From: Telopea speciosissima
Taxonomy: Eukaryota > Streptophyta > Magnoliopsida > Proteales > Proteaceae
Assembly: GCF_018873765.1 (NCBI RefSeq)
Contig: NC_057925.1
Coordinates: 8,815,568-8,879,567, forward strand
DNA: 64,000 nt
Direction: 5' to 3'
Part shown: piece after piece, positions 5,811-59,791 of the stretch
Layout: each line of letters begins with the position of its first letter
Numbering within the stretch: position 1 is the stretch's first letter
Program-made: the position numbers and the translations under genes
Notes under the pieces: generated by a model
Told to the model about the DNA's origin: nothing
The model's input: the letters and a program-made list of their open reading frames with translations, nothing else
Database searches by the model: none

Positions 5811-7286
5811 TTTTTTTTTTTATGAAAGAGAAATTATATATTGCAGATTAAGGAGATAACATATACATAGACTTCGTAAGACAAGCTGACTTAGCAAGGT
5901 TGTTAGCTATCGTACGATAAAAAGAGTCACTCGTAGTAGTATAGTGTATATCAGGGTCTAGGTTATGTATATACAAAAGATCTTTAAGTAATGACAACGA
6001 CCAAGGATTGGAAGTTGGAGATGGAAGAAGATCAACGATCTCTTGATTGGAGCACCATACTTCTTTAATCTACAACCCCAAACTCCTTGAAAGATCAAGA
6101 CCATTTTTAATACTAATTACCTCTGGATCACATCCACTGCAGTTCTTAATATACCCTGCCACAAACAAAATGAAAATACCATTTAGCAGAAAAACAATCG
6201 ACCATCCTGCCGAAGTTACTCCTGAGTTCTGGTATCTTGCACAGATTAAGATAGGATAACTGAAATGAGGAATGGATAAAGATTTTAATCCTACCACATC
6301 AAAACTATCTAGCATTACAGCATGGGATGAAACAGGGGGAGGGGAAATCTTCAAATTGGATAACCACAATTCTGTTTGTTTAAGAACCCAATTGGGATTA
6401 GGTTTTTCTAGCCCCACTACCACCTTGTTTCTAGTAATCCAAATAAAATAACACATAATAATAAACATCTTGAAAAACCAATCTAAAGAGTTTTTATCTA
6501 GAGAACGAGCTGCTATGCAGAAGTTTTCCAATGATGAATGCGAAAGGCATTCAGTCCTTAGCCCCAATGGCCCAGCCCCCTAGATGCGTTTGGTCTAGTC
6601 ACATGATAGGAATAATTACCAGTAGGATTCAGCACCACATCCACAAAGAGCATAGTCTGTATCAACCTGATTCCATTTGGAAATAACTGCCTTAACCGAG
6701 AGACCTGCATTTAAAAGTAGCCAAAAAAAGATTTGGAATTTAGGGTGGAATTTTAGTTTCCAAAAAAATTTCCACCAAGTGGACCTAACAGAAGTATTAG
6801 AGGAATCATGAGAAAGCAAAGATTTAGCAGCTAGCTTAGTACTAAAAATGCCATTTTTGGTAAGAGTACACCACCAGCTGTCCTCAGCAGAAGATAATTT
6901 GATCCTGTAAATATGAGAAGACAAATGCAAAGGAATTGAACAATCTATACTGTCTGAATTCCATCTAGAATCCACAACATAATCAGCAACCTTTGCATTC
7001 CTCAGGTCAAGGTCCTGCAAAGAGGGAAAGAGACTACCCCGCAGAGAGGGGGTCCAAGGGTCAGTCCAAAAAAGGTTGAATTACCGTTCCACATTTTCTT
7101 AATTGAAATCTCCTGGAGGGCTGGAATGACATGGGTAATGCTGTTCCAGGTCTAAGATCCTCTCTTCCTCCTTATTTTTGGGTCAAAAAGTGAGGATTTA
7201 GGGAAGTACTTGGCCTTAAGGGTTCGCGCCCAGAGAGAAGATGGCTTAGTCAGAAGTCTCCAACCTAACTTCATCAGCAAAGCCTA
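5811..7286 (-). mobile_element. 5'-truncated LINE (L1-type), copy A
   Basis: A minus-strand non-LTR retrotransposon 3' segment of 1476 bp. The poly(T) at 5811-5821 is its poly(A) tail. The flanks AGCATGATTGGAGTA (5796-5810) and TGCATGGTTGGAGTG (7287-7301) look like a diverged target duplication. At the 5' end the translation reads ALLMKLGWRLL and LKAKYFP, the end of an RT region. At 7020-6616 comes the RVT zinc-binding region (WWCTLTKNGIFSTK, FFWKLKFHPKFQIFFW, CGCGAES), and at 6567-6070 the RNase H-like tail (SAGWSIVFL). Frameshifts separate these, so it is dead. Confidence 0.85.
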
Positions 7287-8025: not shown

Positions 8026-9156
8026 AAGACCCCTTGTGAGTTTGCTCAGCTGGTTTAGGTCACTTAATCCCAACTTCGAATCCCCATGAATGAAGCCTTT
8101 TTATTTTATGTAAAAGACAAAGTGGAATTATATAAACGAAATATGTACAGTGTTCTTAGCTTGAGCATGTCTAGCAAAATTTAGAGATATTGACATATAA
8201 ATGTTATCCCCTTTTTTTTTATATCAAAGGAGGTATTCTGAGCTAGGTTATGTATATAGAATAGGTCTTTAATAAGATGCCAAGGCCAAGGAGAGGAAGT
8301 TGGAGATGGAAGAATATTGGTGATATGTTGATTTGAATACCATACTTCTTCAATCTGCAACCCCGAACTAGAATGGTCTAGCCCGGATCTAATGCTGAAT
8401 AGTTCAGACTCCATATCGGTAGCAGACTTCATATAACCTGCAGCAAAAAAGATAAACCTTCCATGTAGCAAAATAATATAGGACCATCCTGTTAATTCTA
8501 CTCCCGGAGTTTGGTATCCTGCAGAAATTAAAATAGGAAATTTATAATTTGGTAAGGAAGAGTTGGGGGAGATTGTAATGTCCCTCTCAATACTAGAATA
8601 TACAGAATGGGATGAAATTTTTTTTTGGGGGGGGGGGGTTATATTTAAATCAACTAACCAACGATTGACTTGATTCACCACCCAAATAGGATCAAGTTTT
8701 TCTGATTTAATAAAAGTTTTGTTCCTGATAGCCCAAATAAAATAGCAAGTAATAATAAATAGGGAAAATTACACTGCCACCCCCTGAGGTTTGTATTACA
8801 TACAGAGCGACCCCCTGTGTTTCTAAATTATATAGCCACACCCCCTGAGTGGACGGTGAGTGAACGGTGTTAAATAATACATTTTAAATACCAACTTTGT
8901 GCTCTTCTAATATCCTGTTAATACTCAGCGGGAAATTCCAACTTTGCCCTCTTCTTCCCCAAATTTAAAGTTGCCTCCCTGACTTGAGATTTGGGGCATA
9001 GTGAAGCCAATCTAGTTCGATCTCTCTTGATTCATGTTTGTTCAAACTGAGATTTGGGGCATCGGTTGTTCTCCCCTGGGCGATCCCATCCCTGGATTAT
9101 TGCCTCCAAAATCTTCTTCTGTTTTGAGATACATACTCTGATCTACATATGAACCT

Positions 9157-9849
9157 GCCCCTAGAGAGAAGAGTTAAAGGAGGCAAGGAACTGCAGAGCT
9201 AGGCTTAGGGCTTTTAGAAAATGGCGTTCAAGCGCAGGAACGGTGGCCACAACAAGCATGGCCGTGGCCATGTGAACTTCATCCGCTACTCTAACTGCGG
9301 CAAGTGCTGCCCTAAGGATAAGGCTATCAAGAGGTTTCTTGTGAGGAACATTGTTGAACAAGCTGCGGTTAGGGATGTTCAAGAAGCCTATGTTTATGAC
9401 GGTTATACGCTTCCCAAGTTGTACGCGAAGATGCAGTACTGCGCCTCCTGTGCTATCCATTTGCACGTTGTAAGAGTTCGTTCTCGAACTGACAGAAGAA
9501 AGAGGGAGCCACCTCAGCACTTTAGGCACTGGGAAGACATGCAAAATCCTGGGCAAGCCCCACGCCTAGTTGGAGCTGCAAATCCTGGGCGTGTCTGAAA
9601 GCTTTTAAGAATCTCAATTCATCCATCTGGGCAATGGGATATTTTATGAAATGTTTTGTTTTGTGTCGTTATGGTTTTTCTTAGATTCTACCAGTAGGGG
9701 AGTAAAGGTTTTGCTCATACTGAAATTTCTCATAATTGAATCATCCGCATATTAATTGTAAGCTTTTAATGTCATGGTTGTCAAAAACTCAATTCAATGT
9801 TTATTCCAATGAAAATGGGTAATGGAAATTTCTCTTAAAAAAAAAAAAA
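9157..9849 (+). mobile_element. Processed retrocopy of an eS26 mRNA
   Basis: An intronless copy of 5' leader, ORF, 3' UTR and a poly(A) tract (9837-9850). It is flanked by ACATATGAACCT at 9145-9156 and 9850-9861, a perfect 12-bp duplication (one A shared with the tail). This is the hallmark of LINE-mediated retroposition of a cellular mRNA. The copy sits wholly inside the MULE. Confidence 0.9.
9221..9598 (+). CDS. RPS26: 40S ribosomal protein eS26 retrocopy, intact ORF
   Basis: 125 codons from ATG to TGA with no intron or frameshift. The protein aligns along its whole length with plant eS26: FKRRNGG at residues 3-9, [36 protein letters not shown] and YCASCAIH. eS26 is a small-subunit protein near the mRNA exit site and binds zinc through four cysteines. 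Here Cys26, Cys74 and Cys77 remain but the first ligand is Tyr23, and several usually invariant positions differ (His10, Phe20, Tyr57). The basic C-terminal tail is shortened. Its origin as a retrocopy (poly(A), target duplication) makes this a probable retropseudogene whose frame has not yet decayed. Expression from inside the MULE cannot be judged from sequence. Confidence 0.85.
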
Positions 9850-11252
9850 ACATATGAACCTACAACTACCACAACGTTTTGGTTGCAGAAATTTTCTTGA
9901 AGTTATTACCTACTGTTCTGGCCTGATGCCAGTGGGAATCAAGAGGATAATGGATTACGAACCCTATCCCACAATTTCCACCAGATTGGGTTTGTAATGA
10001 GGGAGTTACATGGCTTGAAACGAAACTGACTTGCCGCTGGTTGTTCCTATCAAGTGGTTGTCATTGTTGCTCTTGAACCTTTATTTAATTCTTAATTTCC
10101 ATAAACCTCTAATAGAGGTATATTAGTCATTTTAAGTCATGAATTACCAACACCGTACCACTTAATGGGAATGATATAATGGAGTGGGGTTGACTGTAAC
10201 AACTAACCAAACCTCAGGGGTTGTGACTGTATAATTTAGAAATACAGGGGGTTGCTTTGTATTTAATACAAATCTCAGGGGTGGCATTGTAATTTTTCCT
10301 AATAAATACTTCAAAGAACCAACAAGAAGATTTTTTATCTTACTTCTGAGAAAAGAGAAAATGGAGGCAGAGGTCTCTGAAGGAGGAATGGGCCAGATAT
10401 TCAGTTCTCAGCCCCAGAGGTCTAGCCACCCAGATGTGTTTGACCCAATCGCACGATAGGAATAAGTGCCAATAGGATTGGACACTATTTCCACAAAAAG
10501 CACCAGAGGGATCGATCTGGAGCCATTTGGAAATGGTAGCTTTGATTGAAAGTCTTGCATTTAGAACACATAAGAAGAAAAATTTTAACTTGGGGTGAAT
10601 TTTAAGCTTTCAAAAGAAATTCCACCAAGAGGAAAGAGAAAAATTATTATTAGTAGAGATAAAATTAAACGATCTAGTAGCGTATTTAGTGCTAAAATTG
10701 CCATTCTTGGCCAAAGTGCACCACCATCTATCCACAGAGCTAGACACATTAAGCTTAAGGATTTGAGAACAAATATTCAAAGGTAAAATATTCTGTAGTA
10801 AAGAAGTATTCCATCCAGACTCTGTCAAGAAATAATCAATGATATTCATTCTATCAGACAGAGAGAGAGAGGAATAGCAGCTGAATTTAGAAGGCATCCA
10901 GGATGGGATGAGATCCAACAATCACTCCAAAAAAACAAAGATTTACCATTACTCATTCTTCTGAGCACAATTTTTTTCAAGTATGGAATAATGTGAGAAA
11001 TACTATTGCAAACCCAAGATCCCTCTTCCTACGGGTTTTGGGATCAAAGAAGGAAAGTTTTGGGAAGTACTTTGCTTTTAAAATTTGAGACCAAATGGAT
11101 GAAGAATCTGTGATTAGTCTCCAACCTAATCCAAACTCCATGAATGAAGCCTTAAACCTGGGCAGGTTCAAGGGTTTCCTCATTAGCATAAAAAAAAAGG
11201 AGAGAGACCTTAAAAGGAATGGTGGTCCAGTGCAAAAATTACAAAGTTGGAA

Positions 11253-11546
11253 TCATCACTATTAGTCCCTTAAGAGAAGCCCCACTTGACACTACATGGG
11301 TTAGTTAGCAAGGAAAGTTAGTTGAACTTTAATTCAAAGTTTTAGTAAAATTATCAAAATGCCATCAATTTGAGATGAATATCAAATACAAAATCACATC
11401 TTTTGTAATTTTAGCTACTTCCTCTACTCATTTTAAGCTGAAATAGTACCAATGAGATGTTTGTTTGATCATTTATCACATGGATTAAACCTTGTACTGT
11501 AATGTGACAGATAGTGAAGTGTTATACTTCACTAGGCATAGTGATG
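11253..11546. mobile_element. MITE, TCACTATGCCTAG-terminus family, copy 1
   Basis: About 294 bp ending GGCATAGTGA, with an imperfect inverted counterpart TCACTATTAG at the left. Internal text (ATTTTAAGCTGAAATTGTAC-like) matches a copy in polygalacturonase intron 7 (30684-31030). No coding capacity. The superfamily is not assignable by eye. Confidence 0.5.
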
Positions 11547-12131
11547 GGAAAGAAAATCCAAAAAAGTTCGATAAATAGATTCAATGATTGAGTTGACCCC
11601 AAAATTCAATAAAATGGGCATATAGTCTAATAGTTACATTGTTCTTATACATGGTTTAAAATATTCTGTAGTAAAGGAGTATTCCATCTAGACTCTGTCA
11701 AGAAATAATCAATGATATTCATTCTATTAGAGAGAGAGAGAGAGAGAGGAATAGCAGCTGAATTTAGAAGGCATCCAGGACGGGATGAGATCCAACAATC
11801 ACTCCAAAAAAACGAAGATTTACCATTACTCATTCTTCTGAGCACAATTTTTTTCAAGTAGAGAATAATGTGAGAAATACTATTGCAAACCCAAGATCCC
11901 TCTTCGTACGGGTTTTGGGATCAAAGAAGGAAAGTTTTGGGAAGTACTTTGCTTTTAAGACTTGAGACCAAATGGATGAAGAATCTATGATTAGTCTCCA
12001 ACCTAATCCAAACTCCATGAATGAAGCCTTAAACCTGGGCACGTTCAAGGGTTTCCTCATTAGCATAAAAAAAAAAGGGAGAGAGACCTTAAAAGGAATG
12101 GTGGTCCAGTGCAAAAATTACAAAGTTGGAA

Positions 12132-12422
12132 TCATCACTATTAGTCCTTTAAGAAAAGCCCCACTTGACACTACATGGGTTAGTCAAGGAAAGTTAGTTG
12201 AACTTTAATTCAAAGTTTTAGTAAAATTATCAAAATGTCATCAATTTGAGATGAATATCAAATACAAAATCACATCTTTTGAAATTTTAGCTACTTCCTC
12301 TACCCATTTTAAGCTGAAATTGTACCAATGAGATGTTTGTTTGATCCTCTATCACATGGATTAAACCTTGTACTGTAATGTGACAAATAATGAAGTGTTA
12401 TACTTCACTAGGCATAGTGACG
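12132..12422. mobile_element. MITE, TCACTATGCCTAG-terminus family, copy 2
   Basis: Second copy of the 11253-11546 element, produced by the tandem duplication rather than by independent transposition. Confidence 0.5.
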
Positions 12423-12532
12423 GGGCAGAAAATCCAAAAAAGTTCGATAAATAGATTCAATGATTGAGTTGACCCCAAAATTCAATAAAATGGGCATATA
12501 GTCTAATAGCTACATTGTTCTTATACATGGTT

Positions 12533-13547
12533 TAAAATTTGAATCTACTACCAAAAAAAAAAAAGGTGTAAAATTTGAACCAGAATTGATCGAACTCAGA
12601 TTCTGATCATTGCTGATTCCCAAATCCATTTTAGAATTGATTATAAATATACTTAAATATTTATTTTTTGACAATTTTCCCTTCTTTTAATTAGTAAAAT
12701 TCCTGACAGTCAATTATACTCATCTCTTATAGCTAGATCTACAAGATTTTTGAATGAAAAACTTGAAGAAAAAAAAAACCAACAACAACAATGAAATGTG
12801 AAAATGTCGACTTTCTTTAGCTCAATCTCATTTTCTAGGGTTTCAATCAATTCAGACTGATTCCCAATTAATTCCTATCCGAATCAAAACAGAATTCAAT
12901 GTAAGTTGAAATTGTGTTCCCAATCCCAAGTTTTAAAACCTTGCCTTCTATTCAACAATTAAACAACAGCCAAATCGAGCTCCTGATTGGCTGATTCATT
13001 AGCTGAAAAAGAAAGAAGCGGATAAATTGATTAGATGGTAACCCATGTGGTTGAGGTGAACAACAAAATTTAACATTTACACATATACTAACGAGTACTC
13101 CATCTCTATAAAATTCATAGTCTATATAGCAGAACCTACTGGTCTTCAAGAAGTATTTATTTTAGGAAGTAGGTTCCCTCCGATGCCACTGTGAAGTTTT
13201 CAGGCAAAAGAGGAGGGAGGGGTAGAAAAGCACATACATGTGAGAGGCAATTCCATATGTCCCTTTTGTTTCGATAAATACCCCTACCCACCTTGTAAAT
13301 GGCAATAATAGGACAGGTGGTTGCCTCTCACATGTACGTGCACCTACACGTACGCGCAAAGAAAGGGAAACATGCCCAATGGAGGGTATTTAGGACATTT
13401 ACGAGAGGGGAGTACAATGTTTTGGGTGGAGGTGTACAATTTCAATTTTAAGCGGGCATCATGGGAAACATAACCTTTATTTTATTGATGTACTCAATTA
13501 AGAAAAACTAAGGGTGGATCTCGCCACAACAATAAGGTTGCTCCATT
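12533..13547. other. Spacer without recognisable genes
   Basis: AT-rich sequence with short ORFs only. A GTACGTGCA-containing stretch near 13220-13350 has text repeated in inverted orientation (ACATACATGTGAGAGGCAA and TTGCCTCTCACATGTACGT), suggesting a small foldback element. Nothing else is supported. Confidence 0.4.
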
Positions 13548-14391: not shown

Positions 14392-16122
14392 TCAAGGTGA
14401 AGAGGGGCGTACGCAAATCTTCAACTTGGCCTTTAAAAATTGAAATCGTGTCGTGGATAACGGCTTGGTGAGAAGATCCGCGAGCTGGTCCTTTGTTGAT
14501 ATGAATTTAACCTCAAGAAGGCCTTGAGCAACAAGATGGCGGACAAAATGAAAGTCCACCTCCATATGTTTGGTCCTGGCATGAAAGAGGGGATTAACCG
14601 TAAGATAAGTAGCACCTAAATTATCGCACCATAAGATTGGAGGGTGCAGATTTGGTATGCCCAATTCTTGGAGAAGAGAGTTGAGCCAAACGATATCCGC
14701 AATGGCATTGGCGAGTGCCCGATATTCAGACTCTGTAGAGGACCGAGCAATGGTAGGTTGCTTCCGAGCAGACCAAGAGATAAGATTATCACCCATAAAA
14801 ATGGCAAACCCCCCTGTGGATTTGCGATCATCGATACAGCCCGCCCAGTCGGCATCCGAGTATGCCATCAAGCGTTGAGATGGAGTTCGAAAGATCATGA
14901 GGCCATGTGTTATAGTATCCTTGAGATAACGAAGAATACGCTTAAAAACTTGCCAATGATCATCAGTAGGAGAATGAAGGAACTGACAGACTTTATTGAC
15001 CGAGAAGGAGATGTCTGGACGGGTCAGAGTGGCATATTGGAGAGCACCCACAGTGCTACGGCACAGAGTCGGATCAGCCAAGGGTGTACCACTGAATTGA
15101 GAGAGCCGAGTAGAAGATGTCATTGGATTCTGGACCGTTTTAGCTCCATCCATGTTGGTACGCCGCAACAGATCAATAATGTACTTTTGTTGAGATAATA
15201 TAATGCCATTGGTATGAGGAACAACCTCTATACCCAAGAAATAATGAAGATTTCCCAAGTCTCGGACTGCAAATTCCTTGCCAAGAGAGCCAATAGTGCG
15301 ATTAACAAGCATAGAATCTGACCCAGTGATAGTGATGTCGCCTACATAGACCAAAATATAAAGACTATGAATAGTAGATTTGGAGATGAACAAGGATGTG
15401 TCTGTCTTCAAACCTTCAAAACCCAAGGTTAAAAGAAATGAACTTAACCGGTGGAACCAGGCCCGTGGAGCCTGTTTCAAACCATAGAGTGACTTATGGA
15501 GTTTGCAAACGTGTCGTGGTTTGTCAGGGTGAATGAACCCAACCAATTGAGACATATAAATATCTTCGTCAAGAGTGCCATGGAGAAACGCATTACTGAC
15601 ATCTAATTGCTGTAAAACCCACCACTTAGAAGTAGCCAAGGAAAGGATGGTTCGAACCGTGGTCGGCTTAACCACGGGACTAAAGGTCTCATTGTAGTCA
15701 AGACCCTCCTGCTGATTATACCCTTCCGCAACGAGGCGAGCCTTGTACCGTTCTATTGTGCCATCGGCCTTGCGTTTAATGCGATACACCCATTTTGAGC
15801 CAACAATATTTTGATTCGGCGAAGGGGGTACCAAAGTCCAAGTGCCATTTCGTAACAGGGCGTTGAATTCAAGTAACATGGCGTCCCTCCATTGAGATGA
15901 TTTACTGGCTGTGGTACAGCATGTAGGTTCAGATTCGGCATTGCAATAGGAGAGGTGCACCGAAGGTAATGGATACTTCGCAGAAGGCCGTGGATGAGGC
16001 CGGAGCTGCATGGGATGAGTGCGAACTGGTGGAGCAACCTGAGGAGATGTAGGACCTGCTGCTTCAGAAAATACTGGTGAGATATTAGCGTTAGATAAAG
16101 TGGTGTGGAGATGGTGTAGCAA
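14392..16122 (-). pseudogene. Copia polyprotein: integrase C-terminus, RT and RNase H
   Basis: A 576-codon open stretch. Order: linker, RT (begins near GTWTLVPPSPNQNIVGSKWV; SLYGLKQAPRAWF conserved), RT active-site region, then RNase H (YSDADWAGC, RSSTESEYRAL, ARTKHMEVDFHFVR, DQLADLLTKPL). The RT catalytic box reads YVGD at residues 259-262; copia enzymes normally have two consecutive aspartates there, so one is missing. The frame is otherwise open, but the upstream integrase lies in another frame. Non-functional. Confidence 0.9.
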
Positions 16123-16660
16123 TTGGTGATGGGGAAGTTATTGTGTGTGATGTGGCAGGTGACATACCTGAGGGGCCAGCAACATCAAGGGTCCAAGAGG
16201 ATGAACCGTGGTTGGAAGATATAGTTAACCATGGAAGAGTTGTAGGGGAGAGTAGAGGTGCATTGGGTTGGGTGACATATGGGAAGGAGGACTCAATAAA
16301 GCTCACATCACGTGCAATATAAATTTTGCCTGATTTAATATCAAAACATCTATAACCAAGAAGGTGTGGACTATATCCGAGAAATACACATTGGGTAGAT
16401 CGAAATGAAAACTTCGCAAAATTATAGGGTCTCAATAAGGGAAAAGCGGCACAACCGAAGAACATGAGAAATGTAGAATTCGGCTTGCGCTTATAAAGAA
16501 CATTCCAAAATTTTAATGGAAGAGAAGCATAGGCCAAAAGTGTTAAACCCGTATCAACAATATGACGAATTTTTCGTTCAGCACTTCCATTTTGTTCGTG
16601 AGTATGCGGGTAGGCAACACGATGGATAATTCCACATTGAGTGAGATATTTGTTTAACAA
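16091..16660 (-). pseudogene. Copia integrase fragment
   Basis: Core and C-terminal integrase text: CGIIHRVAYPHTHEQNGSAE, ERKIRHIVDTGLTLLAYAS, FFGCAAFPLLRPYN, CVFLGYSP. It overlaps the downstream RT frame by about 30 bp in a different phase, marking a frameshift. The zinc-binding and first catalytic parts are missing upstream. Confidence 0.85.
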
Positions 16661-39652: not shown

Positions 39653-41486
39653 ACCAAAGGCCCAATATATGAAACCCATCCCAAGGCTTATTTCCAGTAA
39701 AATAAGCCCACTTCTGTGATTTATATGCATGAAAAATCCTGTACATAATAGTCTAAGCTCCACTACTATAGAGTTTACAATACCAATAGGACCTGAAAAG
39801 ATTACAGAATATTATCTTCAGATTTTGGAAGGCCCTCCAACACCTGCTGACCCTAGGTTACCAAATGGGCTTCCATAAAAAAAAATTTTGATTTTCATAG
39901 TCATGAGAAGAGGGGCTCTCCATGATTGTGGTAAGGTGATGGATGACAGAGGGAATCCAGCAATCATACTCCAATATCTTAAGAAAATGAGAAAAAAAAA
40001 AAAAAAGGTAAATATCCAAAGTAGCCTGCCAACCTAGCAGTTCCCAACATAATGGCTTCAAGAACCCATGCAGATGTCTAATTCAGCTCCAAATATCCTG
40101 TTATGTTCTCCCCACAAAGTCCATGTGCACACTATAGGAATCATTCTCCACATGAGATTCCCTCCCCCCCCCCCCCCCCCCCCAACCTTTAGCTACAGTG
40201 GCAGACTGCCAAACTACAGAAGGTCAATAATATCAGGATAAAGTGTAGTGAACTCCAAAGAGGCTTATATGTAGGTCCAAACTGCTTAAATCAAAGAATA
40301 TTGTGACATTGTCCCTAAAATATAGGTACTAGCATTATGCAAGCAAAGACATAAAACTAAGTAAATGTCAAATTACAGTATGGGTAGATCAGCAAGGAAA
40401 TATGATGAATGTAGAGAGCAATTTTTTGATATGGAGTTAATCCACAAAAAAAAAGAAAAGTTTGGATTGAAAGGGAGGTCAGGTTTTGTAGGAATTATAT
40501 GGGTGAGGTAGGAAATGGGACTAAAAGTGAAAACATAAGGTTTTCATGACTGGCCGGGTGGTATATATGAAAGTCTAAGCCATAACAGTCAAAATTTAGG
40601 GTTTTCTAAAGGGAACTTGATGTTTCAAGCCAGGTTTGTCAGTTAGGTCTTTGGGGTTCAACAATTTCAATATAACTTGAACTCAATGTATGTTTGCAAT
40701 GGAATTTCTCACACATGGCAAGGATTTTAAACTAGTTGTAGAAAAATAAGAAGACGAAGAAAGACAAGACCTACGACGTCAAACCTAGGGTTCCTATAAA
40801 ATTAAAATTAAGGTTCTAGAAAATCATACTTAAATTTAAAGCAATCAAACTTCCAGAGTTTAAGAACTGCAAGTTTAGGACAAGTAAACAAATTCTGACC
40901 CATGGGTAATATCTAATAGGCCAACAAGAATAGTAGAACTAATAACAATAATAACTAGAGTTCACACAAGCAGAAGTTTCAATTAACAACATAGGGACTT
41001 ATAGCTAAGAAGAACAAGCAAAGCATAATCTTAGGATCGGATTTCAATTGAAAGTGGAAAATAAAATGTAAACTACAATCCCTTCTTCCCTTCTTTTTTT
41101 TTTTTTTGGTAGAAACCACAATCCCTTCTTTACCTCCCTCCCTAATGAATGACCAACTTAATTATAGGAAAACAATAAAAGTAAATATACAACCTGCAAG
41201 CAGGAAATGAAGAGGAGAAAAGAGGAAAAGGAGCTCTGCTGTAGGATATTTTTAGTGTACATATGATCCTTACTAACCCGCTCTTTTTGCCAGTTAAAGT
41301 CTTAGGAGGTTTCCAGAAAGCTGAATCCAACAGAATAAGATATTCCTAGATAATCATAGTACTCCCGCGCCCCTGATCAAATGCATATGTTTCCATCCCT
41401 TCCATATTGTTCATCCAGCCTTTCACCTGAGCCACATCACCTTATACAATCAACTAACAAGCAACAGAAACAGAAAACAAGGTGAA

Positions 41487-41652
41487 AAATGATAAACCTA
41501 ACATCGAATACCTATTATAGATCTTAAGAATTGATCTCTAATAGACCTAACATCCTTATGGCACTCTAAAATGATAAACCTTACATTGAATACCTACTAT
41601 AGATCTTAAGAATTGATCTCTAATAATAAATTTAACATCCTTATGGCACTAC
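41487..41652. repeat. 82-bp tandem duplication
   Basis: The unit starting AAAATGATAAACCTAACATC and ending CATCCTTATGGCACT occurs twice head to tail (41487-41569, 41570-41652), with several substitutions and a small indel. Confidence 0.85.
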
Positions 41653-43400
41653 ATCCCCCCCCCCCCCCCAAAAAAAAAAAAAAACTTCAAAACTACATTG
41701 TATCATGAAATTTAATAACTCAAACTCCATGCAACAACCATTAAATCTCTAAGGTCTTAGTCATCATCAAAATTGTTTTGCATGATTTTGCCACTTTAGA
41801 GCAAGAGGTTTCAGAGAAGGTCAAAGTTCAAAGATATCTATGCATATGAGACAAGCTCTTTGAAATGGCTTTGACTAATAGCCCAACAAATTGTGTGGCT
41901 TGTACCTTTTCAACCACTAACATACAAGGTTGAGGCTCAGAAAAAGTTCCAGTACTTAAAGGATACAAGAACATAAATGCTGTAGAGCAGAAAATCACCA
42001 ATGGACCAGTCAGGTGGAGATACGGAAAATCCAAATAGCTAAAGGAGTTCCAAGAGAACAGCTATTAATTGAACACCTAACCTTGACAGTGTAAGGATGT
42101 TTGCGACCCAAATAGATGATAATAATCAGTGACTTCCAATACTAAGAAAGGCACCAGTAATAACAACAGCAAAAGCTCAAATGAGCAAATGAAATTATTT
42201 CAAAAATCTCCCCAGCCATATATGCCAAAGAATGGCATGGAGAGAAACTCCCATGAATCAGTCTTAACTTTCAGCACACCATCATTATACACTGATCACA
42301 AATTCAAAGATGGGCAATATGTTTTAAATCTACACTCTCATCTTTCCACACATCAGATTCTCAAAATCTTCATAAATTCTCATAGCCAGATCATTAATAA
42401 TACATGACCTTCCGAATACCCGATTATGGCATTTTCCCCCCTCATCCATTCAGTATGATTGTTTACTACCCAGCTGTCTATTCATTCAACATTACGAGTT
42501 TTCATTTTTCTTTTTGTCCCAAATTCTAAAGATCAAATGAAGTTTTTATTTTCTTGGGTGGTTTTATTTTCCCTGGGGCGGGGGGGATCCAAATGTATTA
42601 TCAGAACAAAGAAAAATGGGTCATCAAGACTCTCAGTCAATTTTTAATAAGAATAAGAAAGGAAAAATGTGATGCAATAAGTGTTATACATGTCTTAATA
42701 TTCAAGAAAAAAAATAAAGATAAATTGACTACAACAACTGATTGCAACCTATAATTCACACTCGAGGAACTGCATATATAAGACACACCTTTGAGACAAT
42801 TTCTTTATGTAACTATAGAAGTAAGGGTATATGAGGCCACACTCATTTCTTTGAAGTTTTTCTTTTTCAAATCCCCCTTTCCATGGTTAAGCTCTTGCAT
42901 TCTGAGAACATTATATACAAAAAAATTAGGACTGTTCAGTCTTTGCCACAATAGAAACAGCATTGAGAAGACCTGCTACATAATCCTCATATGTGCCAAA
43001 AATGCAAGCAATTTATTGGAAAAAAAATCAAGTTGGGACTTCCAGTGATAACGATTGAAAATCAAGGGTACAAGCCATAACTTTTTTATGAAGTCACAAA
43101 AATTCCCCAAGACAGGCGTCAACCACAATGTGTGATTCCCACTCACATTCTGCTCAAACAGCAAGTCAAAACTGGCAGTAATAACTTTGTGAATAAGTAC
43201 AAAACTCTCTTAGAGCAAGCATTAACCAATAGCTACGACATCCTATACCACTACAGTTCATACAGAAGTTTATAACTTGTGTTAAGACATCATAAGCCCA
43301 AGAGCCATACTCTCATGAAAGGCACGTGAAGCGACATATGTAGGTTGTGAGTGTGTAAAGAGAGGGCAGGCATATTCACAATTGGTATACCAACAAATTA

Positions 43401-45833
43401 TCAACTGGGATGAGAATGGCTTTGCTGCGCTAATGCTAATGCTCCTCCCTGGGCTAACAAACAACGTCGACGGTTGTGCCCTGGTTTTTTGCATGCACTA
43501 CAGTTTGATGGCCCACGACCTTCCCTCTCCGGGCCTACACAACGACGACCATGCTCATCCATCTCATTCTGCAATTGCACTGACTGTGGCCGACCTCTGC
43601 TACGTTCCCTATCTGGGGGAGGGACTATGCTAGGTCCTTCATGAGGAGGCCAGGAGCCTATGTCAGGTACAGAATGAAAACCTGGAGCATATGTTAGTGC
43701 AAAAGTGTCGACTTTATACCAATCATCAACAAAAGTCTGGGGATCCAACATAATTGACTGGCAGGCTGCAATCACATGCGAGCATGGATAGCCATAAATC
43801 TGAAGTTTTCCACATGTACACATGCGGGCCCCTAGATTTACAACATGGGTATGAGGCTCGCCTTTAGTTCCTTTGGTAATCACTTCGAAGACATCAGGTA
43901 CATCATTTAACCACTTAACCCCATGCCCTGATGCTCTGTTCCTATAACATGCAAGTTTTCCCTCAACAAGTGGAGTGAACTGTGACCCATATGCTGCCAC
44001 CTGCTCCCTTCGTGTGATGAAGTAGGTATTCAAGCGGTAAAATGTTAGTCTCACTAACGCTGTTATTGGCAATGCACGAGCTCCTTTCAGTACACTGTTG
44101 ATGGTTTCTGACATGTTTGTTGTCATGATTCCAAAACGATGGAAATCATCATGTGCAAGAGCCCATTGCAGAGCAGGAATTTCATCTATCCATTGCCGAG
44201 CATCCAGACTAATGTTTGTTATTAACTCCATAATCGTATCATACTTTTGAGGTTGATTGTGCTCCGCAGCCCTAATGAGAAGGTTCTTTATAGCAGCATC
44301 ATGAAACCTTCTATTAAAATTGCTGGCTAAGTGGCGCATGCAAATGCGATGAAAGGCATTTGGTTCTTCCCACTCAGGCCTCCTCATTGCCACCAAGATA
44401 TCATTGTGGCAATCCGATATAATACAAAGTCCACTTTGTTTACCGACAATCTCACTAATATTATCCAAAAACCATGACCAGCTACTCTCGTTCTCCTTCA
44501 CAACAATGGCAAATGCAAGGGGAAACAAACCATTGTTCCCATCAATTCCAGTTGCAATTAACAGCATTCCTCCATACTTCCCGGACAATTGTGTGCTGTC
44601 AATGCTTATAACAGGCCGACAATGCTTGAATCCCTCAATTGTGGGGCCAAATGCCCAAAATACACGCTTGAATACACTGGACTGATCACTTACATGCTCC
44701 GATTGTAACAAGACAATGGTGCCAGGGTTTGTCATTTTCAACGCATTGAGATATCTTGGCAATAAGGCATACGATTCTTCCCAATTGCCAAATATCTTCT
44801 CAAACGCCTTCTGTTTTGCCTTCCATGCCTTCATGTATGAAATATTATAGTCATAGGTATTTGCCATATGTGCCTGAATTGCCGCCGGTGTGATTGATAG
44901 TTGAGCTTTGACCATCCCCAGTATTTTACTACAAATGAATTCAGCATCTAACTGTGCATGGTCCTGGTTAATGCTGGGCTTGACACAAGTGTGTGGCCCT
45001 GCATATTTTGTAATGGCAAAACATGAAGAGGAATTCTTCTTCAAAGATGCACGAAGTCTCCACAGACAACCTTTATTTTTACACTTCAGAGCCAGCAACG
45101 ACGGAGTTGACTCTAGAACAATGTACTGCTGATGTGCTCTGATAGCATACTCTTTCACAGTTTGCTGTAATTGTTGTTTCGTTTGAAATATTTGGCCGAC
45201 ATGTAGCACATCTTTTACATTATCTGGAACAACTAGTACTCCTGGTACATGGTTGCTGGCAACCGCATCATTCACCCAGCTTGCATTTGTGAACTCATCA
45301 ATAGGTTCCCGTTCAACCTCTGCCATATTGTTGTTGGCATTAGCTTCTGACACCCAGGCATTTCCCTCTGTCTCATTTAGTTCCTGAACAGGATCCCCAG
45401 TCCCATCCTCCTCACTTCCAACATTGTTGTGGGGAGACTCCTCTCTTCCCTCATCATAGCCTGAACCACTTTGGACAAGTACTAGATCGTCCCTTCCACT
45501 CTCAATGTGTAAAGCTTCATTTTCCAAGTACAACTCCACAGCATGTACATCGGGGTGTCGCCCCAATTCAAGCATTATCTCAGTGGAATCTTTGTCATCT
45601 ATCATGTAGGCTATGTATCCCCTAGACACTGGATATCTACAAGTAATCTTGATATCAAACTGCCTCCTGTCATAGCCAGTTATCTCATACATTTTATCCA
45701 ACAACTCTGAATGACTAATATTATGGTTGACCCTGATTCCCTTCAGCTTACCACCTTCATAATCCAAACCCAGTGATGCAGTTGTAATCTTCCCATTCCA
45801 ACGACACATAAGTGTTACCATCCGATCCGCCAT
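43401..45833 (-). CDS. MULE-type transposase-derived protein (PB1-like, DDE, SWIM, zinc knuckle)
   Basis: One uninterrupted 810-codon frame. Residues 1-105 form a PB1-like N-terminus (MADRMVTLMCRWNGK ... DIKITCRYPVSRGY) followed by an acidic linker. About 215-290 is a FAR1/MuDR-type DNA-binding region (KQQLQQTVKEYAIRAHQ, ALKCKNKGCLWRLRA). The MULE transposase core follows with apparent catalytic D412 (ISIDSTQLSGKYGG), D474 (IISDCHND) and E576 (TTNMSETINSV). A SWIM finger uses C672, C674, C684 and H686; a CCHC knuckle (CSACKKPGHNRRRC) lies near 778-791. An intact frame, a probable spliced 5' UTR exon and no visible terminal repeats near the ORF suggest a domesticated MUSTANG/FAR1-like gene rather than a mobile copy. 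Cellular role unknown; a nuclear DNA-binding regulator is the inference from related genes. Confidence 0.85.
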   Translation of the reverse strand: MADRMVTLMCRWNGKITTASLGLDYEGGKLKGIRVNHNISHSELLDKMYEITGYDRRQFDIKITCRYPVSRGYIAYMIDDKDSTEIMLELGRHPDVHAVELYLENEALHIESGRDDLVLVQSGSGYDEGREESPHNNVGSEEDGTGDPVQELNETEGNAWVSEANANNNMAEVEREPIDEFTNASWVNDAVASNHVPGVLVVPDNVKDVLHVGQIFQTKQQLQQTVKEYAIRAHQQYIVLESTPSLLALKCKNKGCLWRLRASLKKNSSSCFAITKYAGPHTCVKPSINQDHAQLDAEFICSKILGMVKAQLSITPAAIQAHMANTYDYNISYMKAWKAKQKAFEKIFGNWEESYALLPRYLNALKMTNPGTIVLLQSEHVSDQSSVFKRVFWAFGPTIEGFKHCRPVISIDSTQLSGKYGGMLLIATGIDGNNGLFPLAFAIVVKENESSWSWFLDNISEIVGKQSGLCIISDCHNDILVAMRRPEWEEPNAFHRICMRHLASNFNRRFHDAAIKNLLIRAAEHNQPQKYDTIMELITNISLDARQWIDEIPALQWALAHDDFHRFGIMTTNMSETINSVLKGARALPITALVRLTFYRLNTYFITRREQVAAYGSQFTPLVEGKLACYRNRASGHGVKWLNDVPDVFEVITKGTKGEPHTHVVNLGARMCTCGKLQIYGYPCSHVIAACQSIMLDPQTFVDDWYKVDTFALTYAPGFHSVPDIGSWPPHEGPSIVPPPDRERSRGRPQSVQLQNEMDEHGRRCVGPEREGRGPSNCSACKKPGHNRRRCLLAQGGALALAQQSHSHPS

Positions 45834-45836
45834 ATT

Positions 45837-48340
45837 CTGTCATTGTCAATAAAGAACATTAAATGCTGAGCTATTCAAGTGAAAATAAGCCAAAGCTATA
45901 AGATTACAGAACACATAGCACATCTCCTGGTTCCATGTCATTCAATTTATTAGTTATTACATAAAGAAACCATTCTTTTCTCAACATGAAGTTATCCAAA
46001 GTAAACTACCCCACTAATAATATCAATTTGCACCGCACTGCAGTTTAACTGTTTTCTGTTTGAATTTTTCGTCATGGGTTTGATACAATACTAATTTGCA
46101 TTGCAGAATCAGCAGATGGACCATAAACATGACAGGCCAACCATGATATCCGATTTTGCATGTTTTTTGCGAAGAAAGAATGGTTAAAATAAGGGCTAGG
46201 ACCATTCACTCAACTCTTACGAGCTACAGCAAATTCTTCCTAATTTTCTTGGTGGAAAGATTTATAAATACTTCGATAGAGACAAGAGCAACAACTGAAT
46301 AGGAAACACATTTTGTGGAAATCAATTACAGTAAAACCCACGCCCCTGAGCCCCTCCTCCCTTACTTTCCTGTTGGAGCATTTGTCTGGCAACTTCACTG
46401 AGTCAACTAAAAGAAGTGAGGGTTTACCATTTACCTCATCATGAACAATCTGATCTCACTGCAGGAAAATGCTCTTGATATGAATCTTATCTGTTTAGAC
46501 TTATATACCTCTATCGTCCTGGTTACTGACAGCCCAAAGTCATGTCCAATGGTTCCAAGACAATAATACAGATTTGCAAATCATCAAATACATTAGCCAG
46601 AGTGGATTTCCAAAAGCATTGAAAAGGGTAAAAGTAGGAGAATTAAAGAAACGTCACAAGACATGCACTTCACACAGGCTTATTCCATAAAAAAAAAAAT
46701 TTGTAAACATTTCATACAAAAATCATATCAAAAAACATATGGAAATCCATGCCTCAAAACAAAGGTTCAAGATTAAGATGGAAATTTGATACTCAATTAT
46801 AACTTTCATCAGTTCATCAATCACGTTAAAGGTTTTTTTATTTATTTTTTTTTATATATATAGTTAATCACACTACAAATTCACATTATTCTTCCGTTTT
46901 GGGAGATAGGACCAAACCTATACACAAGAAAAATAAAGTAGCACATTACGTGAACTACATTACTCTATGAAACATCATGAAAATAGAAAATGGCAGACTC
47001 CAAAACAAAAGCACCAGCTGATCGTAGGATTTCAAATGAAAATACAAGGTTCCTGATCACAAATTATTGGCCTAAAATGCATTCTACTGGTTAAACTCAA
47101 AATAATCACACTGGACAGTATTACAGCAGAAAATTTTCCATAAGCATCCTCTAATTTTGGCTGGTTAGTACACAATGTTTGAAATTTCAAGTAAAATCTG
47201 TCAAAAATGGATATTTCAGTTTAGCGTGGAGTGTAATCTCGAACCTTATCTGTAAACAATCAGAAACTTTGCCATGTGCTAATCCTAGTAGCAACAAAAT
47301 ATTCAGACAAAAGACGCATATGAAAACAATTGCTTCAACTTCAACTATTAAGGTATATTAATGATTAAATACATTATAAACCAACAAATGGGACAAATAA
47401 TAATCATCAATAACACTAGTAATCCTTGCAGAATAAACCTAGAGGATAGGCAGGAAGAATAAAAAGTTGCAACTCTTTTCCAACAGAAGTCTGACTAGGA
47501 GTGATAACTTCTTTTAGCATTCTCCCATAAGGAATTTAGATTAAGTCCCACTCCCACATTCCTGAACTCAATTCACATAAAACTTGTAAATGGGAATCAC
47601 TACTTCATAAGTGGATACTTAATTTTAGATTAACTCCAATATCCCAGTCTTGACTTCAGTTTACAGAAGACATGGAAGTTCCAGCTTCTTCCAAAATAAA
47701 TAAATAACTCTCCTTGAGGATTACATGGAAGACCTTCTCGGCGCTGCCACTTACGTGGCAAAGTCCCAACATAAATCTATGATAAAATCTTAGAATGGAA
47801 CTTAACACTGACTTTCTCTTGCTATTTTCCAATTCTTCTACTAATGACCATGTTTCTCAGTCAAGCTGCTGTTCAAATTTGTAGCTGCTTCTATGTTCTA
47901 CGGTTTCAACCTCAGAATCTGGCTCTCCAATCTCCTTTAGGGGTTATATGTCAATTAGTACATTTCCTATACACTGGTCATCACAAGTAGGCTGTCATAG
48001 CAAATTGAGAAGTGAATTTGTTTCCTGATAACGGGTCAGATAGATGATAATGACGAGGAGGCCTCATTATTCTCTCAGACCAAATCCAAACACCTACGAT
48101 GCAATCCCATCAAGTAATTAACCCAGAGAGAAACCCAAGCATGCCCATTAAAGCAGAACATTTGCTCGGAAAGAATCAGGGGAATTAAAGTAAAAGAAAA
48201 AAAGAGGAGCCCAGTTCAACTATCACGCCCAATTCAAGTAGACAATGAAAAGAGACGTTCCATCCGAATTGGATGAATGCCCATCATCAGAGGCCCTATA
48301 CCATGATTATAGTTTCATGTGCAGGAAAAATTGAACTAAC
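45837..48340 (-). other. Probable 5' UTR intron of the MULE-type gene
   Basis: A good acceptor (TTCTTTATTGACAATGACAG, ending at 45837) stands directly before AATATGGCG of the start codon. A donor GTTAGT follows GAGGAAACAG at 48341. The 2.5-kb interval is AT-rich and contains no gene or clear repeat. Confidence 0.55.
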
Positions 48341-49541: not shown

Positions 49542-50257
49542 TGTTGCGTGTGAAAACCTCTGGTGCTTGGTTCGCCCGTGGATGAACCTGTAAAAACCAA
49601 GCAATGAGCACAAGAGGGCCGGTGTGGCTCGGCCTAGGACTCTCCGATGCTCAAGTCGGGTCTCCAACGCGACGACGCGTGCTGCGTGGTAAAAGCAAGA
49701 TCATGAATGGTACTCCATACCGGGTATTTATAGAGTGAGGAGGAGACGAGACGGTTGGCAGAGTCCTAGTATGGTAGGAGTCCTTCTTTCGGAAGGTTCT
49801 CTCGCGTAGAGCGGAGTGGAGAGTTATTTTCGAGGTCGGACTCTTATTAAGGTAAGAGTCCATGTAGAGTGCGATTCCGTGATGCGCGGGGATCGTGGCT
49901 CGATCCTATCCCATAATTCTCGGGATGTGTTGACGTGGCGGAGATCCTAGGTGGGGTGCTATGGGAGCCTCAATGGAAGAGGGCTCGGCCTCGGAGGTCG
50001 GCTCAGGGGTCGGCAGAGGAGGTCGGCAAGGGAGCTCGGCCCGGGAGGTTGGTCTCGGCCATGAGTTCGGCTAGGAGTCTATGGGCTGACCTGAGGGGCT
50101 CGGCCTCCGCCAGGCTAGCTCGTTGAGTGCGGTTCTGTCGGTGACTTATCGGAGACGAGGTCGGCCCGGTCTCTGCTTGGCCCAACTCGGTTCTCGGACC
50201 GAGGTCGGGTCGGCCATGTGGCGACCTCGGATAGGAGGGGTGTTTTATGCCTCATCA
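49542..50257 (-). repeat. 3' LTR of the gypsy element
   Basis: 716 bp; minus strand TGATGAGGCATAAAACACCC ... ACACGCAACA. A TATA-like CTATAAATACC (minus) lies at about 49724-49734. Confidence 0.9.
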
Positions 50258-50275
50258 CAGCCCCCACTCATCGAG
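50258..50275 (-). other. Polypurine tract of the gypsy element
   Basis: The minus strand reads CTCGATGAGTGGGGGCTG directly before the 3' LTR. The G-rich core is the expected plus-strand primer. Confidence 0.6.
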
Positions 50276-50507
50276 GGGCTCGGCAGACTCGATGAGTGAA
50301 GTTTCTGAGTCGCTTGTCGGAAGATTCTTGCGGTTGAGCCGAGCTTATTTTTATTGCCGCGGATTTAACGTTGCACGATCCGGACGGTTGGGTTTGATGC
50401 CACGTCGCCAGAGCCATTATGGCAGGCTCGGGAATTTGAAGCGCCCTTTGATGCGGGCCGTTGAATCATCTCGAGCTGCAGTCGCCGTAGGATCGAGAAA
50501 ACCAAGG

Positions 50508-50520
50508 ATTATAAATAGGC
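50508..50520 (+). promoter_or_regulatory. Opposite-strand TATA box inside the gypsy element
   Basis: ATTATAAATAGGC on the plus strand, about 250 bp inside the 3' LTR boundary and 170 bp before the first ATG of the opposite-strand unit. Good core-promoter consensus in GC-rich sequence. Confidence 0.55.
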
Positions 50521-50681
50521 GACTCCTAACTATTCATTCCTCAACGCTTTAAGTTATTGACTTCTCGGCAAGCTTGGATCCTTCACTCGGTAGATCTCGG
50601 CGTTTACTTGCTCGCGATCGACTCGGCCGTTGCTTCGTTCGCGCCGGTTCTTCTTCAATCGATAAGTCTTCTCCGCCTAGT

Positions 50682-52990
50682 ATGTCGTTGGTAGTAGTCC
50701 TATGGGCGAGCTGCTCGTCGGGCGCGAGAGGGCGCTAGTCCGAGCCGAGAGCTCCCGCTCGTTCTCCCACCATAGACTGTTGGGCTCGACCTCGGATGAG
50801 CCCGATGTAGTGGAGTTTCGTCGGCCGAGGTGGCCGAGCCTCAGTTACTCATGGAGTCGACCACGCGGCCCAATCCATCGCCGCTGAGACCAGCCGAGAA
50901 CTCCGGTCGTCCTCATCCGATGAGGTATCAAGTGAGGGAGATTCGTCCGAGGTGGGGGGTTGGCTCGGTCGGCTCGTCTGCTGCCGCCCGAGCCGAAGGA
51001 AGGCGATGTCGGCACCGATTCGAGCACGATCACGGAGGACGACCTCGACTATCCGAGGACGACCTATGCCATCCCCGAGGACATTCGGCTCCGAGTTCCT
51101 AACCCCGGTGAGATGGCTCGCTTCTTGAGACCGGCGAGGTGGCTCTGCACGAGACCCCCTTCAAGTATGCGTTCGGGCTCCGTTCTCGGCTGGTGGACGG
51201 ATCTTGGACCACTTCCACCTGTCTCTGGCCCCGGGTGCCGAACTCTTGGCTGGCCGTGTACGGCTTCTACGCCTTGTTCGGCGAGATGGGCCGAGGTGCG
51301 AGCGTGGCGCTTTTTCTCGGCTCTTCTTCTTGAAGAAATCTCCGAGAAGGGGTGGTGCTATACGCCGCCCGATCGGGAAGAGTGTGGCTACGGGCGGCCA
51401 CAAATTTAAGTCGATCGCGCCGACCTTCAATAAGTATTGGAAGCCTCGTTTTTCTTCGCTTCCATTCCCAGACCCTCTCCGAACCGAGTGGAAGGAGATG
51501 AACTGAACTACGTCAATAGGGTACTACCCCGGCCGAGAACGAGATGACATCGCCGGACTGATCTTAGCGTCCGCCCCCGATGTCCTCCGGCCGGGACGAG
51601 GGTTTCTTGGAGGTGGCATATGACCCCTGGTAAGAGCCCGAGCCGGGCCCGTCTCCGTTGTCGAGATGACCCCTTTACTTGATTTTCTTTTTCTTTCGAC
51701 TTATTTTTACATTCTCGGTTTCTCTTGCGGTGGTGGTCACATTCCCCTATGGATACAGCTGGCTACGAGGCCAAGACCATCGATCGAAAGAAGAAAAATG
51801 CGAGAGAAGAAACCCCGGCGAGTCCTCCAAGGCCCCCAAGGGCAAGGCCGTGATGTCGGGGCCATCGGATCTTGTGGTCGGCCTTGAGGCCGAGAAGAAT
51901 ACGGCCCAACCGGGTCTCCGAGGAAGGGGAAAGGCCGAAAAGGCGAGAAGAGCCCGTCGAGACGTCAGCGTCAAAAGCTCTCGGTTAATCGACTAGTGGT
52001 GGTCTTCCGCCGTGGCTTCGCCCGCCAACATCTCCGATATGTCACGGGAGGGCCTCGCCAACAACGTTCCCGTGAGGCTGACACGGGCCTCTTCCCGGGG
52101 ACTCGGCTTTGGACGTCGGCCGCTCATGCCAAAGAATCATTGGATGCGGTCGGCTTCCATCCGACAAGGAGAAGCTCGAGCGTTGCGACCTAAGCTCCTC
52201 TCCACTCTATTTCGGGATTTTCAACATGGTAAGTTTCCTTGTCGGCTTTTTTGATTAGATATGATACGTGTAGTCTGTCTTGATTTTTGTGCTCATGCTT
52301 TTTTGTAGGGCTTTGCCAAGGCAGTGGAGACTATGCTCGCTTTGAGGCTCTTGATCGAGAACTATTCCTTGGACGTCCGGTGCAAGAAGGCTTATCGGGA
52401 TGCCCAGGATGCCGATTCGGAGGCGTCGGGAGACTCAGAGAAGCTCACGCCGCCGAGGCCGAAGTGGAGAGCTCTCGGGCCGAGGTGGTCAGGAGAGAGA
52501 AGGTCCGGACTCTGCAGGCTCGGCTGCCGAGGTGAAGGAGAGGGCCAAGGAAGATCGGCCACGGCTCGGGCGAGGAGGTCGCGACTATCTCCAATCGGAG
52601 GAGTATGCCGATGTCTCGCCATGAGATCGGGAAGCCTCCCCTACGCCGAAGGTTTTGAGGCGGGCCGAGTGAGCTTTTGGTCGAGATCAAGGCGGCGTAC
52701 CCGATCTCAATCTCTCCGTTTTGATGATGATGCTACTACCTTTGCAGGGAGATGGGAGATGAGGAGGGAGCCGAGGTCACCAGGCTCGCCCTTGAGGCAC
52801 TGCTCCGGTCGACGCCTTCCCTCACGGGAGCCGGACCACAAGATCCCGCTGCCGAGCCTATTTCGTGGACACTTCCGAGGTCGCCTCCAAGTCCCCGCCG
52901 AGGAGACCGAGATGTAAAATTTTTTTTTTTTTTTTTTTTTTTGGGGGCCGAACTGCCCGTTTTGTAACCGTGCCGATTAGTCGGCTTATA
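50682..52990 (+). pseudogene. Opposite-strand extra gene of the gypsy element (putative gypsy-type transposon domain)
   Basis: Plus-strand, antisense to gag-pol. A Ser-rich N-terminus is followed by DSSTITEDDLDYPRTTYAIP and EDIRLRVPNPGE (50960-51120), then VALHETPFKYAFGL (about 51135-51180), SWLAVYGFYALFGEMG (51245-51295) and GGHKFKSIAPTFNKYWKPRF (51390-51450). This resembles the plant 'putative gypsy type transposon' (Transposase_28-like) proteins. Splice signals fit an intron at 52229-52308 (CATG|GTAAGTTTCC ... TTTTTTGTAG|GGC); another acceptor is at 52747 (CTACCTTTGCAG). The 3' part is Glu/Arg-rich and coiled-coil-like, and AATGAATGAAACAAC near 52990 could serve polyadenylation. Indels break the frame repeatedly. 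No enzymatic function is established for such ORFs. Confidence 0.55.
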
Positions 52991-53350
52991 ATGAATGAAA
53001 CAACTTATTTTTGCGAATTTGTCTAAGTATTTTAACTCGGCGCCCTTAGCCTTCTTTTCCTTGTGTATTCTTTTTATTTGTGGCCAAAGCCGAAGTCGTT
53101 TCGCTAGCCGAGCTTAGGAACTCGTCTCCTTTTACCCATGTCTCATGTGGTGGCGGTTTCGGCCATGCCATGTCCGAGGTCCATGTGATCCTCGCCTTGG
53201 TTGGTTAGTTCGGCGTTCCCTTCGGTCCGATTGGAGAGGCTATCATATAAGCGGACGCGTGGCCGAGTATCCTTCCCGGCCGAGCCTAATGCCTTAGCTT
53301 AGTTTTGTACTTTGTTAGGCTCGGCCAAATAGGGATGTCTGCGCTCTTGA
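52991..53350. other. Non-coding gypsy 3' region
   Basis: Between the opposite-strand unit and the minisatellite; no gene recognised. Confidence 0.4.
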
Positions 53351-53780: not shown

Positions 53781-53864
53781 CTTGGGAGCTTGCAAATACG
53801 TTAAGTGGTGGAGAAAGACTTTATTGAATCAAATGTCGGGCGAAGCCGAAACACGCATGCTCAA

Positions 53865-54910: not shown

Positions 54911-54949
54911 CCCCTTTTGGTCCCGAGGCATCGGAGAAGGGGGTGAGAT

Positions 54950-57010: not shown

Positions 57011-57224
57011 CATCTTCAGAGATGAAGTGGGGTCAGTCTTCTACGGTCGTCCTCTTGTCTCGATAAGCTCATCCCGCTGATCCTCGGGAGATGCTCGACG
57101 CGACATGGCCATTCCTCGAACATTACCCTTGTTTTGCTTGACGAAGTAGCGTAGCACTCTGCCTTCTTCGGTCGCCTCGGACCTCACCGACACCGTTCTC
57201 GGTGGGGAACTTCATCTTCAAGTG

Positions 57225-59789: not shown

Positions 59790-59791
59790 AC

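Follow-up and report, generated by a model that had tools for sequence, protein, structure and literature searches.

Processed pseudogenes of ribosomal-protein genes are recognized by the loss of introns, a poly(A) tract and a short target site duplication (TSD); their source gene is usually highly expressed, and they multiply by repeated retroposition. Pack-MULEs, a type of Mutator-like element (MULE), were reportedly described in plants by Jiang et al. in 2004. They are reviewed in PMC13317346, and Jiang et al. 2004 is cited in the accessible part of PMC2846932. In Dothideomycetes, a hAT element carries an intronless histone H3 gene, for which a captured transcript or a retrocopy is inferred by the authors in the accessible part of their report (PMC6710886). 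One survey of such elements, according to the available section of PMC8277862, discards intronless candidates as retroduplicates. The current work concerns a Pack-MULE-type element with a retroposed copy of the ribosomal-protein gene eS26 (RPS26), located in a stretch of 64,000 nucleotides of Telopea speciosissima (RefSeq assembly GCF_018873765.1, contig NC_057925.1), which as a whole is called the window (C10:8815568-8879567). The genome searched comprised 822.9 Mb in 1,287 contigs; contigs are written C1, C2 and so on, and the eS26 copies outside the window are named after them.

A single retroposition hit one MULE, and the composite element then spread. The full history favored here, in which a Pack-MULE with DNA-level captures took up one eS26 retroposition and afterwards transposed as a composite, is assigned a probability of about 0.93. 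The principal features in the window are as follows.

8762..10299, plus strand: non-autonomous Mutator-like element (Pack-MULE type) with the eS26 retrocopy, identified by its terminal inverted repeats (TIRs), its 9-bp TSD and five further genomic copies with the insert
8753..8761, unstranded: left 9-bp TSD of the MULE, TAATAAATA, a perfect match to the right copy
10300..10308, unstranded: right 9-bp TSD of the MULE, TAATAAATA, a perfect match to the left copy
8762..8849, plus strand: left TIR of the MULE, by gapped BLAST
10213..10299, minus strand: right TIR of the MULE, by gapped BLAST
9157..9849, plus strand: processed eS26 (RPS26) retrocopy with 5' untranslated region (UTR), open reading frame (ORF), 3'UTR and poly(A)
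9145..9156, unstranded: left 12-bp TSD of the retrocopy, ACATATGAACCT, with the site uninterrupted in three sister MULEs and at one locus on C3
9850..9861, unstranded: right 12-bp TSD of the retrocopy, ACATATGAACCT, identical to the left copy
9221..9598, plus strand: intact eS26 ORF of 125 codons plus stop, Ribosomal_S26e E 4e-49

The original prediction, made from the letters of the window, described a MULE with long inverted termini and a perfect 9-bp duplication, and within it an eS26 copy with poly(A) and a perfect 12-bp duplication of its own. Both descriptions were borne out. The element is 1,538 bp long, and its TIR pair shows 87.5% identity over 88 aligned columns (gapped BLAST, E 1.3e-24). 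In an ungapped shuffle test, 40 matches were obtained against a mean of 21.7 and a maximum of 36 in 500 shuffles; because of a one-base shift this test understates the match, and the gapped BLAST value was used instead. Within the surrounding 10 kb, two random non-overlapping 9-mers were identical in 27 of 1,000,000 pairs, and two such 12-mers in 15 of 1,000,000. Matches to the TIRs were found at many further genomic places among the best 40 of 1180 candidates scored.

The eS26 copy has the structure of a processed messenger. An A-run directly precedes the second ACATATGAACCT copy, and the nearest eS26 gene of the genome, on C8, contains four introns with GT..AG ends, one of them right after the ATG, all four of which are missing precisely from the retrocopies. 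An alignment with the intron-bearing RPS26, proposed earlier as a check, thus agrees with retroposition; in the window copy, the missing introns map to 9223/9224, 9316/9317, 9401/9402 and 9532/9533, positions worked out manually from exon lengths. Of the solved eS26 chains, the closest are 8auv, 7qix and 9h3g, from tobacco, tomato and Arabidopsis. The zinc ligands of eS26 are residues 23, 26, 74 and 77. Residue 23 of the window copy is Tyr, while both intron-bearing eS26 genes of the genome, including the C8 gene, encode Cys there, so the full-length frame lacking one zinc ligand had been read correctly.

A DNA-level search of the genome with the eS26 insert, in which each of the 9 first-look candidates was scored, retrieved six intronless copies, in the window and on C5, C4, C10 (a second copy, C10b), C9 and C7, as well as two genes with introns, on C8 and C2. 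The protein search agrees on these eS26 loci (13 of 13 candidates scored). Every one of the six intronless copies sits in this MULE. The original prediction had named two findings as fatal to retroposition: an intron-bearing eS26 inside the MULE, and the absence of the 12-bp flanks from all related copies. Neither of the two intron-bearing loci has a MULE-end match within the stretch searched around it, 6.5 kb for one and 5 kb for the other, and the 12-bp duplication is common to all six carriers, with one base off in the left copy of C9, C5 and C7. The C7 copy (L013, C7:48400200-48403700) contains a 480-bp insertion in the eS26 3'UTR, and in the C9 copy (L011, C9:6900600-6903600) the stop codon has been lost, extending the frame to 142 codons. 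Matches to pattern P0001 numbered 27 in genome contigs and 4 in viral contigs, and no relative was among them.

MULE copies with and without the insert, for which a search had also been proposed, both exist. Three sister MULEs possess TIRs and no eS26: C1:15578921-15580231, C2:18086299-18087695 and C3:69071639-69072895 (C3a). A further locus, C3:62193473-62193925, has neither inverted ends nor eS26, and its target site is likewise undivided. All 12 bases of the undivided site are intact in C2, C3a and the C3 locus, whereas in C1 a TA run within it has grown longer. These are empty target sites of the retrocopy. When flanks of 501-700 bp per side were compared among ten elements, 22 self matches and 0 cross matches were obtained at E 1e-3. 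The 9-bp TSDs of the carriers also differ from one another, their two copies agreeing at 9/9 positions in the window, 8/9 in C4, 9/9 in C9, 8/9 in C5 and 7/9 in C7. The six sites have unrelated flanks; therefore the composite element has transposed at least five times, and the claim that a MULE ferries a cellular gene holds. At no fewer than five of the six sites, the retrocopy arrived already inside the MULE. Independent retropositions at six sites were rejected, as the same 12-bp duplication and the same MULE context occur in all six, and segmental duplication was rejected, as the flanks of the elements have no mutual match. The grouping C4+C7+C9 is supported at 100 by the MULE part of the tree, though not by the insert part. 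With mostly short internal branches the tree is almost a star, and with its order poorly resolved it singles out no founder site.

The site of the window element is itself informative, since the MULE interrupts a long interspersed nuclear element (LINE) of which an uninterrupted copy lies nearby.

8243..8752, minus strand: one side of the MULE-interrupted LINE, 68.6% identical to 5958-6465
10309..10737, minus strand: other side of the MULE-interrupted LINE, of which 10367-10737 is 68.3% identical to 6517-6887
about 5958..6887, minus strand: uninterrupted LINE copy, the empty site of the MULE by alignment across the junction

When the MULE flanks were joined with one TAATAAATA copy, they aligned to the uninterrupted LINE across the junction; on the left, 63 of 101 columns are identical, and on the right 56 of 91, with 9 gap columns in addition. 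At the uninterrupted copy, the ORF 6616-7080 contains a zf-RVT domain. The LINE was inserted first and the MULE second, as had been proposed, and the empty site is directly visible. A tandem duplication of about 880 bp, 95.9% identical (10784-11662 and 11657-12538), adjoins the interrupted LINE. From the window alone, the default reading would be an ordinary nested insertion, in which the eS26 retrocopy fell into a MULE already resident in this LINE and the element never moved again. Five further sites with unrelated flanks, each with the same composite and the same 12-bp duplication, refute this for the family as a whole; if the window were the founder, the retrocopy did land here, yet the element moved on. 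Next to no weight is therefore given to an element that stayed where it was.

The composite also bears the marks of an ordinary Pack-MULE, in the form of host DNA captured from two loci.

8998..9014, plus strand: 17-bp stump of an exon from a captured LBD (LOB-domain) gene, with one base changed in the window, identified by its match to an LBD gene on C11
9017..9156, plus strand: left part of a second captured host fragment, with a TIR-less match at C3:62193473-62193925
9850..10110, plus strand: right part of the second captured host fragment, split off by the retrocopy

The C3 locus was the only TIR-less match to the second fragment among the best 40 of 1180 candidates scored, and no MULE-end match was found in 10 kb at that locus. 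As for the first fragment, the three sister MULEs carry an extra segment of about 490 bp that ends, over approximately its final 310 bp, in what reads as part of an LBD gene with its intron. Against Pfam LOB, the C2 copy scores above the curated cut-off, whereas one exon of the C1 copy stays below it (E 0.017). The fragment aligns to the C11 LBD locus, which has the LOB domain, at 88.5% over 330 columns, straight across the intron, and no TIR match was present in the 3.3 kb examined there; four further LBD-like loci without MULE ends align to it at 79-85%. Among the best 40 of 122 candidates scored, the search with the LBD fragment gave at least 45 matching rows, 12 of which, by our own count, adjoin a MULE-end match. 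In the LBD-bearing Pack-MULE subfamily (L014, L015, L016 and others), the fragment keeps its intron.

Five of the six carriers have the 17-bp LBD stump joined to the C3 fragment at the junction seen in the sisters, and in two of them, the window and C7, a single base has changed. The sixth carrier, C5, bears a deletion at this place. This stump and the shared junction therefore link five of six carriers to the LBD-bearing sisters. The eS26-carrying MULE is thus also a DNA-level Pack-MULE, and the same lineage experienced DNA-level capture and then an RNA-level acquisition. The original prediction had set retroposition against the DNA-level capture usual in Pack-MULEs; retroposition stands for the eS26 cargo, and the either/or contrast falls, since the MULE captured DNA fragments as well. 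The target site of the retrocopy lies within captured host sequence, which would also fit a different order of events: the retrocopy could have entered the host fragment at its home locus, and the MULE could later have captured the fragment with the retrocopy inside. The C3 locus, however, is empty, and the carriers share the LBD/C3 junction and the terminal structure with empty sister MULEs. This shared junction points to one capture before the retroposition, and insertion at the home locus is considered extremely unlikely.

On the favored history, a Pack-MULE would first have captured two host fragments as DNA, part of an LBD gene with its intron and the anonymous C3 fragment. A copy of the eS26 mRNA would then have entered the captured C3 fragment by a LINE-type, target-primed insertion, presumably with LINE enzymes as the retroposing machinery; such an insertion would yield the 12-bp duplication, the poly(A) tract and the exact removal of all four introns. 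The simplest assumption for the LBD fragment is that it had shrunk to its 17-bp stump by the time the six copies diverged. A MULE transposase supplied in trans may have moved the composite, producing at least five new copies, of which the copy in the LINE of the window is probably one, and after each insertion neutral decay under methylation would have set in.

The C8 gene is the nearest candidate for the source of the retrocopy. An ancestor was reconstructed as the majority of the six frames; the C8 gene decided codons 26, 89 and 123, nonsynonymous columns with a 3:3 tie, and its state was also adopted at three synonymous columns. This majority ancestor encodes the C8 protein exactly, and its coding sequence (CDS) differs from that of the C8 gene by 6 synonymous and 0 nonsynonymous changes. 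In the untranslated regions, 6 of 61 5'UTR sites differ, as do 14 of 180 3'UTR sites plus 15 gap columns.

Several observations weigh against the favored history. Approximately the last 50 bases of the retrocopy 3'UTR (9786-9836) are absent from the 5 kb around the C8 gene, and a search with 9768-9836 matched the six MULE copies only (6 of 6 candidates scored). Because of this missing tail, the direct source may not be the C8 gene but a closely related paralogue that has disappeared or is not in the assembly; alternatively, the C8 gene may have supplied the mRNA while it still had a different 3' end. Judged by eye, the match of the insertion point to the preference of the L1 endonuclease is weak. 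In C9 and C5 the TSDs fall within poly(T), and C10b, whose right end is damaged, shows none that is convincing (best 6/9). Moreover, no autonomous partner of the TIR family was identified when the MuDR-type ORF of the window was considered.

43401-45839, minus strand: MuDR-type transposase ORF, 812 aa, with MULE, DBD_Tnp_Mut and SWIM domains

In 41000-48000 around this ORF, no long, well-matched inverted repeats were found, only three weak pairs of 25-27 nt. It was dropped as the autonomous partner, as the ends of the eS26-MULE have no match there and well-matched inverted repeats are lacking. The ORF is possibly a domesticated gene.

The fate of the eS26 copies was examined by counting changes from the ancestor. 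The six copies contain 118 changes: 44 synonymous, 73 nonsynonymous, 0 nonsense and 1 stop loss. From the non-coding rates of these elements, 125 changes would be expected; for a total of 118, the expected split, in the same order, is 35.6, 79.6, 2.5 and 0.3. After correction for context, the ratio comes to 0.74 (P 0.13), and rates taken from the CDS itself give 0.70 (P 0.07); when shared changes are counted once, 60 nonsynonymous and 29 synonymous changes remain (P 0.41). The original prediction had left room for function and had taken a ratio of nonsynonymous to synonymous divergence (dN/dS) near 1 as its refutation; values of 0.70-0.74, not significantly below 1, largely amount to that. Transitions per CDS site reach 0.163 at CpG and 0.106 at CHG, against 0.022 at CHH and 0.013 at A/T, and this CpG/CHG excess is the pattern that methylated, silenced DNA would show. 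From these counts, the eS26 copies now look like decaying passengers, and function is not supported.

It may be asked, nevertheless, whether the MULE-borne eS26 copies form a functional retrogene family kept by selection. All six eS26 frames are open, which is mildly unexpected under decay, and nonsense changes number 0 against 2.5 expected (P 0.08), or against 1.8 with CDS-own rates (P 0.17). All 15 distinct gap intervals lie in the 1,120 bp of non-coding sequence and none in the 378 bp of CDS; the P of about 0.013 was calculated by hand and assumes equal indel rates, from which AT-rich non-coding sequence may differ. Among the 15 pairs of copies, mean dN/mean dS by NG86 is 0.54. C7 has 8 nonsynonymous changes among 20 (P 0.0067, about 0.04 when corrected for six copies), and C7 and C4 keep all four zinc ligands. 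On the other side, the count of 73:44 nonsynonymous to synonymous changes does not depart significantly from the 79.6:35.6 expected once mutation context is considered, and the 60:29 count is not significant either. One or more zinc ligands have been lost in four of the six copies (C23Y in the window, C26Y in C10b and C5, and C26Y with C77Y in C9), C9 has lost its stop, and the CDS is more diverged (7-10%) than the neighboring 3'UTR (2-5%). Selection claimed from the open frames alone was rejected after context-aware counting. A selected family is thus very unlikely, and the open frames and allied signals are read as mostly reflecting recent descent from one ancestor with a wild-type protein, C7 being the suggestive exception.

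A broader proposal would be that plants generally amplify genes in two stages, first by retroposition and then by DNA transposition, with the mobile Pack-MULE serving as a landing pad for LINE-made cDNA, and that at least one eS26 copy, C7, is still under selection. Taken together, these two propositions are unlikely. If they were true, a one-off retrocopy would become a dispersed family of complete intronless genes.

Other features of the window lie apart from the composite element. Direct repeats of about 700 bp, 89% identical (49545-50256 and 59797-60495), surround a GC-richer block (0.51-0.58) within which the stretch 53351-53778 is repeated; the repeats and block at 49545-60495 look like a decayed long terminal repeat (LTR) element. 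An ORF at 14392-16137 on the minus strand encodes a Ty1/copia-type reverse transcriptase (RVT_2, E 6e-66), and an ORF at 2054-2881, also on the minus strand, contains nitrite/sulphite reductase domains.

In this family, every step can still be read from its own trace: the capture of two fragments as DNA, the insertion of one RNA-derived copy, for which empty sites are seen, and the spread to six places. The six copies, being of known common ancestry, offer a test set for measuring decay or selection. Pack-MULEs, processed retrocopies and the fungal hAT-amplified intronless histone H3, the last as given in the accessible part of PMC6710886, are already known. Among the titles and abstract beginnings listed from the open-licence literature, which leaves most subscription papers outside, no plant MULE was found with a retroposed gene that bears its own TSD and an empty site and was then spread.

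The element resembles the plant Pack-MULEs outlined in the accessible part of PMC13317346 in being non-autonomous, in holding host gene sequence between TIRs, in its 9-bp TSD, in its several copies and in its fragments from more than one locus. It differs from them, as they appear in that part, in that the eS26 cargo was copied from an mRNA, is full length and brings a TSD and poly(A) of its own, instead of being a fragment captured as DNA. The ARF6 retrogene with MER20 is similar in that retrogene sequence lies inside a DNA transposon, but a composite spread to several sites is not described in the available section of that article (PMC8277862). The nearest precedent, on what the accessible text of PMC6710886 contains, is the fungal hAT element with intronless histone H3. 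There, too, a DNA transposon multiplied an intronless housekeeping gene whose copies decay by C-to-T changes; however, the superfamily and the kingdom are different, and the decay is due to repeat-induced point mutation (RIP). The argument in that text is drawn from exon-exon junctions and absent introns, and it mentions neither a TSD of the cDNA step nor an empty site. The eS26 element shows, step by step, how two transposon classes acting in series multiplied a whole housekeeping gene. In this it is also unlike the processed pseudogenes of ribosomal-protein genes, for here one retroposition was multiplied by DNA transposition.
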